DNA from: an uncultured Oscillospiraceae bacterium
GTDB lineage: Bacteria > Bacillota > Clostridia > Oscillospirales > Oscillospiraceae
Direction of reading: 5' to 3'
Length of the DNA stretch: 34,541 bases
NCBI GenBank assembly: GCA_944385485.1
Contig: CALWXL010000009.1
Location: 1-34,541, forward strand
Under the pieces are notes generated by a model that saw only the letters and a list, made by a program, of their open reading frames with translations, searched no databases and was not told where the DNA came from. Both the position numbers and the translations under genes were made by a program. Below, piece after piece: positions 16,146-31,309 of this stretch (the first letter of the stretch is position 1; every line of letters begins with the position of its first letter).

Positions 16146-16351
16146 AAGCCCTCGGCAGAGTTTTCCCATCCGCAGATGGGAAAATAAACTGAAATCTCGT
16201 TTTTTCGGGGACATGTGCATCGAAAAAACACTTCTCAGTCCGCCAGTGTGGCCTTGGATCGCCCTTTGATCCAAGGGTGCATGCAGCGGGCTGCATCCCC
16301 TCGAGAACATGCTGGCATGTTCGAGAAGCGTGTCGAACTTTTTCGACACGC
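16146..16351 (+). ncRNA. structured repeat element, copy 1 (candidate mobile structured RNA)
   Basis: 206 bp aligning end to end with 31102-31309. Helices: TTTTCCCATC/GATGGGAAAA (16161-16184); TTTTTTCG/CGAAAAAA (16200-16228); CAGTCCGC (16236-16243) with GCGGGCTG (16286-16293), which encloses CCTTGGATC/GATCCAAGG (16252-16276); GAACATGC/GCATGTTC (16305-16322); GCGTGTCGAA/TTCGACACGC (16328-16351). The sequence between helices is conserved in the other copy, while helix sequences change in compensated pairs. The T-G wobble in the enclosing helix pairs only on the plus-strand RNA, which favours plus-strand transcription. No protein-coding signal is present. It lies between two copies of the upstream terminator. 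I know of no matching family but could not search. Confidence 0.7.
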
Positions 16352-16355
16352 ACAA

Positions 16356-16390
16356 AGGACCGCAGGATGGCGCACATTCTGTGATCCTCC
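16356..16390 (+). terminator. second copy of the coiled-coil gene's terminator hairpin
   Basis: Twenty-six bases identical to 16053-16078, then diverging (TGATCCT instead of CGGTCCT). It still folds with one mismatch, but the T run is weak (CCATTTTG). With the first copy it brackets the structured element. Confidence 0.75.
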
Positions 16391-16525
16391 ATTTTGCTCC
16401 ACAGTGAACCGGGCCACAATTGAAAATGTCGAATAAGTGCCCCGGTTTCTGATAAACGAAGGAATTATTGTCTTGTTTCATGAAATTATTCATGAAAACT
16501 TCATATTTTTCCAAGAAAAAAGTCC
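16391..16525. other. AT-rich leader upstream of the mraZ promoter, with inverted repeat
   Basis: No gene is visible. TTTCATGAA-ATTA-TTCATGAAA (16476-16497) has perfect 9-bp arms and lies 29 bp before the mraZ -35, where an activator or repressor could bind. The sequence is markedly more A/T-rich than its surroundings. Confidence 0.45.
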
Positions 16526-16554
16526 TTGCAATTTCACCCAGGGGGATGTATACT
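16526..16554 (+). promoter_or_regulatory. sigma-A promoter of the dcw cluster
   Basis: TTGCAA (16526-16531), a 17-bp spacer, and TATACT (16549-16554). Transcription would start near 16561, just ahead of the MraZ boxes. Confidence 0.8.
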
Positions 16555-16564
16555 AGGGATACAT

Positions 16565-16590
16565 TGGAGTGAAATGGAGTGAAATGGAGG
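16565..16590 (+). promoter_or_regulatory. MraZ operator: tandem TGGAG boxes at 10-bp spacing
   Basis: TGGAGTGAAA occurs twice in a row (16565-16574, 16575-16584) and is followed by a third TGGAGG (16585-16590). In E. coli and Mycoplasma MraZ binds three or four direct repeats of a TGGG- or GTGG-like core at 10-bp intervals upstream of its own gene. The spacing and position here match. The third box doubles as the mraZ ribosome-binding site, so bound MraZ could also affect translation. Confidence 0.75.
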
Positions 16591-16598
16591 GGACGAGG

Positions 16599-28569: not shown

Positions 28570-29496
28570 ATGACGGTGCGGGGACGCTTTGCCCCCAGCC
28601 CCAGCGGACGGATGCACCTGGGCAATTTGATGGCTGCGCTGTTGGCCTGGCTGGACGTGCGCAGCCAGGGGGGGACCATGGTGCTGCGCATCGAGGATCT
28701 GGACCCCCAGCGGTGCTCTCTGGACAAGGCCAGACAGCTGGTGGAGGACCTGGAGTGGTTGGGCCTGGACTGGGACGAGGGCGGGCTGGAACCGGACTAT
28801 TGCCAGTCCAACCGTTCCCGCCACTTTGAGGCGGCGTTCCACCGCTTGGAAGAGCTGGGGCTCATCTACCCCTGCTACTGCACCCGGGCAGAGCGTCTGG
28901 CCGCCTCCGCGCCCCACGCCTCTGACGGGGCGGTGGTGTACACAGGCCGCTGCGCCCACCTGACCCAGGCACAGCGCCAGGAGCTGGAGGCACAGGGCAG
29001 ACACCCGGCCTATCGGGTGCGGGTACCCCAGGAGGAACTCACCGTTCAGGATGGCCACATGGGCCCCTATACCCAGCGGCTGGACACCGACTGTGGAGAC
29101 TTCATCGTCCGCCGCTCCGACGGAGTGTGGGCCTACCAGCTGGCGGTGGTGGTGGATGACGCCATGATGGGGGTCAATCACGTGGTGCGGGGGTGTGATC
29201 TGCTCTCCTCATCGCCCGCCCAGGCGTGGCTGCACCGAACTCTGGGGTATGAGCCGCCTCAGTTCTACCATCTGCCCCTGTTGGTGGATGCCCAGGGTCG
29301 GCGGCTGTCCAAGCGGGATCGGGACCTGGACATGGGGGTCCTGCGGGCTAAGTACACCCCCCAGGAGCTGGTGGGCTGGCTGGGGTGGCTGGCAGGGGTG
29401 CAGAAGGAGCCGAAAAGTGCCACACCGCACCAGCTGATTTCCAGCTTCCAATGGTCAAAAGTGCCGAAAAACCCCATCCTCGTCGGTTCAACTTGA
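28570..29496 (+). CDS. gluQ: glutamyl-queuosine tRNA(Asp) synthetase
   Basis: A 308-residue stand-alone paralogue of the glutamyl-tRNA synthetase catalytic core (YadB family), which attaches glutamate to queuosine in tRNA-Asp. The ATP motif is RFAPSPSGRMHLGN (HIGH variant HLGN) and the second is LSKRD in place of KMSKS. The zinc site is CYC and YTGRC. It lacks the anticodon-binding domain of full GltX, and its length fits. ATG 28570 has GGAGGG 7 bases ahead; the frame opens at TTG 28555. The final 30 residues, after WLGWLAGVQ, are not typical of the family and overlap the guaB promoter. Confidence 0.88.
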   Translation: MTVRGRFAPSPSGRMHLGNLMAALLAWLDVRSQGGTMVLRIEDLDPQRCSLDKARQLVEDLEWLGLDWDEGGLEPDYCQSNRSRHFEAAFHRLEELGLIYPCYCTRAERLAASAPHASDGAVVYTGRCAHLTQAQRQELEAQGRHPAYRVRVPQEELTVQDGHMGPYTQRLDTDCGDFIVRRSDGVWAYQLAVVVDDAMMGVNHVVRGCDLLSSSPAQAWLHRTLGYEPPQFYHLPLLVDAQGRRLSKRDRDLDMGVLRAKYTPQELVGWLGWLAGVQKEPKSATPHQLISSFQWSKVPKNPILVGST

Positions 29497-29521
29497 CACG
29501 GTTTTTCCCAGAGCGTAAAAT
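29493..29521 (+). promoter_or_regulatory. strong sigma-A promoter of guaB
   Basis: Consensus TTGACA (29493-29498), a 17-bp spacer, and TAAAAT (29516-29521). The -35 box contains the stop codon of gluQ (TGA 29494-29496). I see no purine riboswitch or PurR-like box in the short leader. Confidence 0.9.
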
Positions 29522-29554
29522 GAAATATAAATATAATTTTGGAGGAGTGGTAAA

Positions 29555-31030
29555 ATGTCGCAGATTCCGTACAATGACAAGTTTGTAAAAATGGGTCTGA
29601 CCTTTGACGACGTGCTGCTGATCCCTGCCGAGAGCAACATTCTCCCCGCAGACATCAACCTGCACACCCGTCTCACCCGCAAGATTACCCTGAACATCCC
29701 CGTGGTCAGCGCCGCCATGGATACCGTCACCGAGTCCCGCATGGCCATCGCCCTGGCCCGTGAAGGCGGTCTGGGTATCATTCACAAGAATATGTCCATC
29801 GGCGCTCAGGCCGAGCAGGTGGACATGGTCAAGCGTAGTGAAAACGGCGTCATTACCAACCCCTTCTTCCTCGGCCCAGGCCATACCTTGGCTGAGGCGG
29901 ACGAGCTGATGGCTAAGTTCCGCATCTCCGGTGTGCCCATCTGCGACAACGGCAAGCTCATCGGCATCATCACCAACCGTGATATGAAGTTTGAGACCGA
30001 TATGTCTCAGCTCATCGACAACGTGATGACCAAGGACAACCTGGTCACCGCTCCCGAGGGCACCACCCTCCAGGAGGCCCGTGAGATTCTCCGCCGCCAC
30101 AAGATCGAGAAGCTGCCCATCGTGGACAGCGAGAACCACCTGAAGGGCCTGATTACCATCAAGGACATCGACAAGGCCCAGGTGTACCCCAACTCTGCCC
30201 GTGACGAGAAGGGCCGCCTGATGGTGGGTGCCGCCATCGGTGTCACTGCCGACGTGCTGGACCGCGTGGCTGCCTTGGTGGAGGCTGGCGCCGACGTTCT
30301 GTGCCTGGACTCTGCCCACGGCCACTCTCAGAACATCCTCAACTGCGTCAAGCGCATCAAGAGCCTGTACCCCGACGTGCAGCTCATCGCCGGCAACGTG
30401 GCCACTGCTGAGGGTACTCGTGCCCTCATCGAGGCTGGCGCTGACTGCGTGAAGATCGGCATTGGCCCCGGCTCCATCTGCACCACCCGTGTGGTGGCTG
30501 GTATCGGTGTGCCTCAGATCACCGCTGTGTATGACGCTGCCCGTGTGGCTGCCGAGTACGACGTGCCCATCATCGCCGACGGCGGTATCAAGTTCTCCGG
30601 CGACATCGCCAAGGCCATTGCCGCTGGCGGCAACGTGGTCATGCTGGGCTCCCTGCTGGCTGGCTGTGAGGAGTCCCCCGGCGACACCGAGGTCTACCAG
30701 GGCCGTCAGTTCAAGGTCTACCGCGGCATGGGCTCTCTGGGCGCCATGGCTTGCGGCTCCAAGGATCGTTACTTCCAGCAGAACAACAAGAAGCTGGTGC
30801 CCGAAGGCGTGGAAGGCCGCGTGCCTTACAAGGGACCTGTGGCCGACACCATCTATCAGATGATGGGCGGTCTGCGGGCTGGTATGGGCTACTGCGGCTG
30901 CGCCACCATCGACGAGCTGCGCACCAAGGCCCAGTTCATCCAGATCACCGCCGCCGGTCTCCGGGAGTCTCACCCCCACGACATCTACATCACCAAGGAA
31001 GCTCCCAACTACACCGTCAGCCCCCAATAA
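29555..31030 (+). CDS. guaB: inosine-5'-monophosphate dehydrogenase
   Basis: A 491-residue enzyme oxidising IMP to XMP, the rate-limiting step to guanine nucleotides. It begins with [17 protein letters not shown]. Two CBS domains are inserted at about residues 93-205 (TNRDMKF and IKDIDKA mark their ends). The catalytic loop is [10 protein letters not shown] with the nucleophilic cysteine near 309, and the flap and C-terminal region contain GMGSLGAM and [11 protein letters not shown]. The length is normal. GGAGG precedes the ATG. Codons are those of a highly expressed gene (CGT, GGT, GCT frequent), matching its consensus promoter. Confidence 0.97.
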
Positions 31031-31038
31031 AACATCTC

Positions 31039-31078
31039 ATCTGCCACAGAGGGAAACCTCTGTGGCAGATTCTTTTTT
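31039..31078 (+). terminator. intrinsic terminator after guaB, first copy
   Basis: ATCTGCCACAGAGG-GAAA-CCTCTGTGGCAGAT, a perfect 14-bp stem with a GNRA loop, followed by TCTTTTTT. Its core of 27 bases recurs exactly at 31317-31343. Confidence 0.93.
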
Positions 31079-31101
31079 GAGACTCCGTGTGACCGGGATA
31101 G

Positions 31102-31309
31102 AAGCCCTCGGCAGAGTTTTCCCGCCTGCAGGCGGGAAAATAAATTGAAATGACGTTTTTTCCGAGGACACGCGCATCGGAAAAAACACTTCTCAGCCCG
31201 CAAGTGTGGAATCGGGGCGTCCTTTGACCCGATTATGCATGCAGCGGGCTGTATCTCCTCGAAAAAATGCTTGCATTTTTGAGAAGCGTGTCGAAAACCT
31301 TCGACACGC
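31102..31309 (+). ncRNA. structured repeat element, copy 2 (candidate mobile structured RNA)
   Basis: 208 bp homologous to 16146-16351 with the same helices: TTTTCCCGCC/GGCGGGAAAA (31117-31140); TTTTTTCCGA/TCGGAAAAAA (31156-31186); CAGCCCGC (31194-31201) with GCGGGCTG (31244-31251), enclosing AATCGGG/CCCGATT (31210-31234); AAAAATGC/GCATTTTT (31263-31280), again with a two-base bulge before CTC/GAG; GCGTGTCGAA/TTCGACACGC (31286-31309). Against copy 1, paired positions change together. It is followed 6 bp later by a terminator with a six-T run, so a discrete RNA of about 240 nt could end there. No convincing dedicated promoter is visible; readthrough from guaB is possible. Confidence 0.7.

Follow-up and report, generated by a model that had tools for sequence, protein, structure and literature searches.

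IS1272 and TnSha1, members of the IS1182 family, target stem-loops that share no sequence consensus, several of which are transcription terminators; in the excerpts of the two reports used here, insertion replaces the stem-loop or deletes part of it, with no duplication of the target (PMC5678879, PMC4923244). Duplication of the whole stem-loop is drawn, in the available part of the former report, as a hypothetical pathway (pathway b, Fig. 13 of PMC5678879). Bacterial MITEs are described in the portion of a review considered here as short, multi-copy elements with terminal inverted repeats and direct repeats, without a transposase gene and with a transcript that is predicted to fold (PMC10969869). 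In addition, the excerpted part of an RNA survey of 50 genomes presents multi-copy structured motifs as probably transposase-moved, leaving open whether they work as RNA or DNA (PMC11109978).

The window (the whole stretch of 34,541 nucleotides that was analysed) contains two copies of a MITE family that jumps into the gene-end terminators of gut bacteria, often leaving a copy of the terminator on each side. The first-pass annotation had aligned two stretches of ~207 bp with the same fold and paired changes in both; the copies, their fold and the changes are real, but the boundaries were too narrow and were widened once the flanks had been read, as the element continues 5' (~16086–16355 and ~31076–31313). 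The features are listed below, with bit scores from covariance model R1, of which copy 1 and copy 2 (as L001) were also training sequences.

16053–16085, no strand: copy 1, upstream terminator copy T5, 33-bp direct repeat
16086–16355, + strand: copy 1, whole element between its two terminator copies (ends approximate; 5' inverted repeat degenerate)
16150–16295, + strand: copy 1, conserved structured core (R1 positions 1–147, 154.1 bits)
16161–16184, + strand: copy 1, hairpin 1 (TTTTCCCATC CGCA GATGGGAAAA)
16199–16229, + strand: copy 1, hairpin 2, conserved apical loop GGGACATGTGCAT
16236–16293, + strand: copy 1, long-range helix CAGTCCGC/GCGGGCTG around a variable hairpin
16305–16322, + strand: copy 1, hairpin 5 (GAACATGC/GCATGTTC)
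16328–16351, + strand: copy 1, hairpin 6 (GCGTGTCGAA/TTCGACACGC), containing the 3' terminal inverted repeat
16356–16388, no strand: copy 1, downstream terminator copy T3
31045–31075, no strand: copy 2, upstream terminator copy T5, 31-bp direct repeat
31076–31313, + strand: copy 2, whole element (5' end shortened; ends approximate)
31106–31253, + strand: copy 2, conserved structured core (R1, 169.0 bits)
31117–31140, + strand: copy 2, hairpin 1
31155–31187, + strand: copy 2, hairpin 2
31194–31251, + strand: copy 2, long-range helix CAGCCCGC/GCGGGCTG
31317–31347, no strand: copy 2, downstream terminator copy T3

The helices reported by the first-pass annotation were present in the two copies, including CCCATC/GATGGG versus CCCGCC/GGCGGG, TTTTTTCG/CGAAAAAA versus TTTTTTCCGA/TCGGAAAAAA, CCTTGGATC/GATCCAAGG versus AATCGGG/CCCGATT, and GAACATGC/GCATGTTC versus AAAAATGC/GCATTTTT, as well as the long-range helix CAGYCCGC/GCGGGCTG with its single T·G wobble in copy 1. 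The two bases read in the first pass as a bulge of the fifth helix form its apical loop (TG in one copy and TT in the other). No Rfam match was obtained for the window at the gathering score or for the copy 2 region (31000–31420) at E ≤ 1.

Each window copy sits between two copies of one terminator, and these direct repeats were identical at 31/33 and 30/31 positions (scores of 27 and 28) for copies 1 and 2, respectively. The downstream terminators had been seen in the first pass; their duplication on both sides had been missed. Empty sites, with a single terminator and no element, were directly observed at both loci, five relatives showing one at locus 1 (L282 and L284–L287) and one relative at locus 2 (L256). 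For a wider view, 215 model matches (88, 82 and 45) were reduced to 200 copies by excluding 5 redundant hits to places already counted and 10 second or partial hits, and the 187 copies with 150 bp on both sides (all but 13) were scored for flanking repeats. A direct repeat with a score of at least 16 was found in 68 of these 187 copies, compared with 0 of 561 mismatched flank pairs, and 119 copies had no repeat at this score. The repeats spanned 17–38 bp and were mostly stem-loops: a stem of at least 8 bp lay inside 56 of the 68, versus 34 of 1360 shuffles. Some terminators had been hit repeatedly: at the guaB terminator, three genomes (G011, G001 and G019) carried a copy in the opposite orientation, and another (G024) carried a copy of another subfamily, as judged by eye. 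Opposite orientations at one place were seen in 14 pairs of copies, spread by our own grouping over 9 loci, which could also reflect inversion between the two palindromic terminators; 16 same-orientation groups were found at places shared between genomes. The orientation of surrounding genes was not used because it is unreliable where GC-rich antisense frames stay open.

The element is ~200–275 bp long and has no transposase gene of its own. In intact copies, judged by eye, the 5' end AGnnTGTCrAAAAA and the 3' end TTTTTCGACAgnCT form terminal inverted repeats, which are degenerate in both window copies and of the AGACTGTCrAAAAA type in intact relatives. We scanned 34 PF13751 transposase loci (6 + 28 from two profile scans, a subset of all matches), and the terminal repeat was matched at 12 or more of 15 positions at both ends in 13 of them. 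A hairpin adjoined each end in all 13 loci, and the like ends and duplication were directly visible in the 8 that had the same hairpin on both sides. In one of these (L035) the loop was inverted; this locus lies in an element-bearing genome (G011) and is a candidate autonomous partner with the same ends. All seven transposases tested scored above the NCBIfam IS1182 cut-off (NF033551). Shared ends, abutting hairpins and IS1182 transposases together thus identify an IS1182-type non-autonomous element (MITE), and we are confident that the copies form a mobile family of this type. The first-pass annotation had proposed a structured RNA or a non-autonomous element with a fold needed for mobility, and had named a hit to an insertion-sequence end as an outcome that would count against it. 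This interpretation is supported in part: the mobile non-autonomous element and the fold kept by paired changes both stand, and the ends did prove to resemble those of IS1182-family insertion sequences.

Model matches numbered 34 in the window's own assembly (G000), 26 in G009 and 29 in G020; copy counts from the order-wide scan are lower bounds because at most 7 candidates per genome were scored there. An exact pattern had no match in the viral contigs searched. The assembly with the window (86% complete, 34 copies) had no PF13751 or NF033551 match, and no transposase match was found in G375 (rated 100% complete, 2 contigs), where 5 of the 7 copies scored had repeats scoring at least 24. NF033551 was matched at E ≤ 0.001 in 23/58 element-positive and 95/336 element-negative genomes (Fisher p = 0.089), and PF13751 in 16/58 and 54/336 (p = 0.041). 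The association between the element and IS1182 genes was therefore weak over these 394 genomes, which were taken as the same set across three scans since number and handles agree. In one host family (f7), the core was present, a flanking repeat was found in 0 of 16 copies, and IS1182-type terminal inverted repeats were not seen.

The interior fold is real and is conserved by covariation over 16 genera. Both-sided changes occurred in 19 of 38 predicted pairs among 24 copies. In an alignment of 101 copies from 100 chosen sources (A5; 16 genera by our own count), made with the covariance model, 24 column pairs covaried (E < 0.05, phylogeny-based null), and 21 of these belong to the 38 pairs of the model; the statistics came from our own implementation rather than R-scape itself, and columns with at most 50% occupancy were excluded both here and in a later column-wise analysis. 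The long-range helix was among the covarying structures, hairpin 2 had four loop positions that were constant in 99–100 of the 101 copies over a varying stem, and several linkers were also strongly conserved. In a full-length MAFFT alignment of the 61 copies with a GTGTCGA-type 3' hairpin, significant covariation was limited to 2 pairs, both within the structure.

Wobbles modestly favoured the plus strand, pointing to RNA or single-stranded DNA. On the tree of 101 copies, Watson–Crick pairs changed to G-T 45 times and to A-C 23 times (p = 0.010), compared with 199 direct changes to another Watson–Crick pair, each within one branch; the corresponding wobble events in the 61 copies numbered 23 and 3. 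Across 32 well-paired pairs, 50 cells were G-T and 21 were A-C, the counts including wobble-majority pairs (320 versus 22) having been set aside as biased by the choice of structure. Copies sharing a place showed 44 single Watson–Crick/G-T changes versus 16 to A-C, a merely suggestive count in which groups of three were counted thrice and some groups perhaps represent separate insertions. Mispairing was alike in 62 copies with repeats (2.9% of pairs) and 114 without (3.4%, p = 0.33), in a comparison where selection by covariance or BLAST score hides decayed copies.

We propose that an IS1182-family DDE transposase would move these MITEs in trans by recognising the outer inverted repeats AGnCTGTCrAAAAA. 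Intrinsic transcription terminators would be chosen as targets by their stem-loop shape, and the element would probably join at the feet of the stem-loop, leaving a whole terminator on both sides so that the host gene keeps one. Such duplication would explain how gene ends can be filled without terminator loss. The likeliest role of the fold, in turn, is as a plus-strand RNA produced by read-through, and it may be kept because fold-bearing copies are better tolerated or better propagated. This action as a plus-strand RNA is the least certain part of the explanation, and we regard it as evenly balanced. Several points count against the proposed explanation: the 119 copies without a repeat, all 16 of family f7 among them; the many element-bearing genomes without an IS1182 match and the weak association; the like mispairing in copies with and without repeats; the few covarying pairs in the 61-copy alignment; and the upstream terminator, which is expected to keep transcription of the element low. 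A bolder idea, which we hold only tentatively, is that the 5' core is itself a structured, selfish RNA that travels within this bacterial order by more than one kind of mobile vehicle: between terminator-duplicating, IS1182-type ends in most hosts studied and, in another host family, with a different 3' half lacking those ends. If true, the core RNA would influence its own spread or the tolerance of the host for it.

Instead of an RNA, the fold could work as DNA, with single-stranded or cruciform hairpins read by the transposase or host factors during transposition, a possibility that we rate as somewhat doubtful. IS1272, of the same family, reads its target as a stem-loop according to the excerpts (PMC5678879, PMC4923244), the 3' inverted repeat lies within hairpin 6, and single-stranded DNA would likewise be expected to favour G-T over A-C. 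However, the core was found in the 34 transposase loci only as two weak matches (E of 0.036 and 0.56), which suggests that these insertion sequences can do without it, and family f7 has the core but neither these ends nor the repeats. It is unlikely that the paired changes are purely mutational, with template switching in imperfect palindromes rewriting one arm to complement the other and keeping hairpins perfect without function. The excess of direct Watson–Crick replacements over G-T and A-C changes fits such a process, as does the absence of higher mispairing in copies without repeats, whereas a strand-symmetric process would not be expected to give a plus-strand wobble excess, the long-range helix also covaries, and the conserved hairpin 2 loop and linkers require selection on sequence. 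A host-maintained structured RNA gene or cis-regulator of the usual kind, with fixed genomic positions, would account for the conserved fold and loops and the 16 same-orientation groups, but this riboregulator reading was rejected as highly improbable given the copy number in the window's own genome, the empty sites, the duplicated terminators and the occurrence of both orientations at single sites. That the element descends from a group IIC intron or another terminator-preferring retroelement is more improbable still: such introns also prefer terminators, but no Rfam family matched the window at the gathering score or copy 2 at E ≤ 1, and the ends are IS1182-type inverted repeats, so the reading was rejected.

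Overall, the family supplies many natural cases of complete target stem-loop duplication, so far drawn, in the excerpted source, merely as a possible IS1182-family pathway. Its interior, covarying over 16 genera, makes RNA, DNA and mutational causes of palindrome conservation testable on hundreds of copies. To our knowledge, neither whole-terminator duplication nor a folded MITE has been described for the IS1182 family. The open-access papers listed described neither this fold nor the duplication of whole terminators by IS1182 elements. In ISfinder, IS1182-family direct repeats are variable and sometimes long (0–60 bp), with palindromic targets for some members; the long ones are like those found here, and long duplications may already be recorded. 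Group IIC introns, which prefer sites at terminators, are alike in this preference, whereas the present element has inverted-repeat ends and no Rfam match. The one survey example compared, MRSC-65-2, has a UYCCGG repeat, unlike the present element, which may equal another candidate of that survey (PMC11109978, in part). Unlike the bacterial MITEs in the reviewed portion of PMC10969869, this family has direct repeats of 17–38 bp that are mostly stem-loops, and a fold that covaries over 16 genera. With IS1272 and TnSha1, as excerpted, it shares the transposase family and the targeting of stem-loops, and it differs from them in duplicating the whole stem-loop.

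Direct comparison of the two ~207-bp elements showed that they are alignable and that the helices described in the first-pass annotation are present in both. The copies it had delimited are therefore real, while its 5' boundaries fall short, since the element reaches further 5' than reported. Comparison of the flanks revealed that each copy is sandwiched between two copies of the upstream gene's terminator; the intervening element opens with an inverted repeat that is degenerate in both cases. An Rfam search of the window gave no match.

Structured elements of the window and the terminator copies flanking them
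16053-16085 and 16356-16388: terminator pair of copy 1, 31/33 identical
16146-16351: copy 1, as first delimited
31045-31075 and 31317-31347: terminator pair of copy 2, 30/31 identical
31102-31309: copy 2, as first delimited

Matches to the element were found by DNA search in 14 of 60 related genomes, and an exact-pattern search retrieved 58 stretches, with hosts including Pseudoflavonifractor, Flavonifractor, Intestinimonas and other Oscillospiraceae. R1, a covariance model of the structured core (147 positions, trained on 24 copies including both window copies), matched 58 of 394 genomes and 26 of 168 genera across the order, with up to seven candidates scored per genome. The window's own genome contained 34 R1 matches, and G009 and G020 contained 26 and 29, respectively. 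At L095, L159 and on contig C44 of G020, two core matches lie adjacent on the same strand, suggesting tandem or nested elements.

Insertion into terminators was not confined to the window. For the 187 of 200 copies with at least 150 bp on each side, the best ungapped direct repeat was sought between the 300 bp upstream and the 300 bp downstream; it scored at least 16 in 68 copies, compared with none of 561 mismatched flank pairs. Stems of 8 bp or longer occurred in 56 of these 68 repeats, compared with 34 of 1360 shuffles, and three repeats (L092, L133 and L182) appeared by eye to be plain gene ends. Empty sites with a single terminator were found in relatives at locus 1, the site of copy 1 (L282 and L284-L287), and at locus 2, that of copy 2 (L256); among 30 fetched relatives each, R1 matched only the window's own sequence at locus 1 and five, the window's own included, at locus 2. 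The guaB terminator carries an other-subfamily copy with a repeat in G024 and a copy in the opposite orientation in G011, G001 and G019; overall, 14 pairs of copies at 9 loci (our grouping) showed opposite orientations at one place. In at least four pairs (L051, L076, L113 and L136), the two repeats were distinguished by eye by an inverted loop, which suggests hairpin or cruciform intermediates and is the trace expected from resolving a cruciform or processing a hairpin. At the coaD to mraZ locus of G011 (L283), two partial terminator copies were seen by eye to flank a short unrelated stretch, possibly a scar left where an element was excised or decayed.

A candidate mobiliser was indicated by L035 of G011, an IS1182-family transposase gene bounded by CAGACTGTCGAAAAAC and GTTCTTCGACAGTCTG, with a 35-bp stem-loop duplicated on its two flanks, likewise differing by an inverted loop (by eye). 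Among 34 scanned loci matching the transposase profile PF13751, 13 matched the element's terminal repeat at their two ends, each of which abutted a hairpin; eight, including L035, had the same hairpin at both ends, and five (L033, L222, L224, L229 and L235) had different ones, perhaps owing to recombination between copies. All seven transposases tested exceeded the NCBIfam IS1182 cut-off. The structured core was not found in the 34 loci, which gave two weak matches (E 0.036 and 0.56). PF13751 matches occurred in 16/58 element-positive versus 54/336 element-negative genomes (p=0.041), and matches to NF033551, the NCBIfam IS1182 profile, at E<=0.001 in 23/58 versus 95/336 (p=0.089). Many element-bearing genomes thus lack the transposase gene, a point against the partnership: neither profile matched the window genome (albeit rated 86% complete) or G375 (rated 100% complete), where five of seven copies studied had repeats scoring at least 24. 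In G232, PF13751 matched seven times with equal E-value and frame length on contig C1, and once on C2, which may reflect recent activity of an IS1182 element. Read outward, the 5' inverted repeat of intact copies such as L003 contains by eye TTGACA, a -35-like hexamer directed towards the flank. Overall, the window copies and their relatives very probably represent an IS1182-type MITE, and the mobile-element reading is well supported.

One host family, f7, differed. Its 16 copies examined from four genomes (L025, L056, L058, L060, L061, L158-L167 and L175) start at about GCCTCGCAGAG and retain hairpins 1 and 2, conserved loop included; their 3' half is different and terminates in a long variable hairpin. 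At score 16, none of these 16 copies showed a flanking repeat, and the genomes matching IS1182 or PF13751 did not include any of the four; the core fold is thus not strictly bound to IS1182 ends. These copies may be old relics or may have been moved by another mobiliser.

Covariation was assessed by G-test in 101 copies from 16 genera (alignment A5), applying average product correction and taking 60 tree-based reshufflings as the null. Of 24 covarying pairs at E<0.05, 21 were model pairs, two adjoined helices, and one reflected an A-G to G-A change in the hairpin 2 loop, where G61, C63, G66 and C69 were conserved in 99-100 of 101 copies above a variable stem. Only two pairs were significant in the 61-copy full-length alignment. 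Departures from Watson-Crick pairs led to G-T in 45 cases versus A-C in 23 (101 copies; binomial p=0.010), and in 23 versus 3 among the 61 full-length copies, an excess favouring a plus-strand fold. We consider the chances of a putative RNA-level role to be about even; action of the fold as DNA is somewhat unlikely. Copies flanked by repeats and those lacking them were alike in mispairing. Direct double changes are the commonest change class (199) and keep an explanation by mutational palindrome repair in play, though maintenance by mutation alone is improbable.

For the IS1182 family, ISfinder lists direct repeats that can reach about 60 bp, and whole-terminator duplications may thus already be recorded there. 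Among the literature matches listed, including passages of PMC10969869, PMC9208149 and PMC11109978, neither whole-terminator duplication nor this fold was found described. TnSha1 is reported to insert into stem-loops, several of them confirmed terminators, with partial deletion (PMC4923244). What appears new here is the duplication of the entire terminator and, within a MITE, a fold maintained by covariation in many genera.
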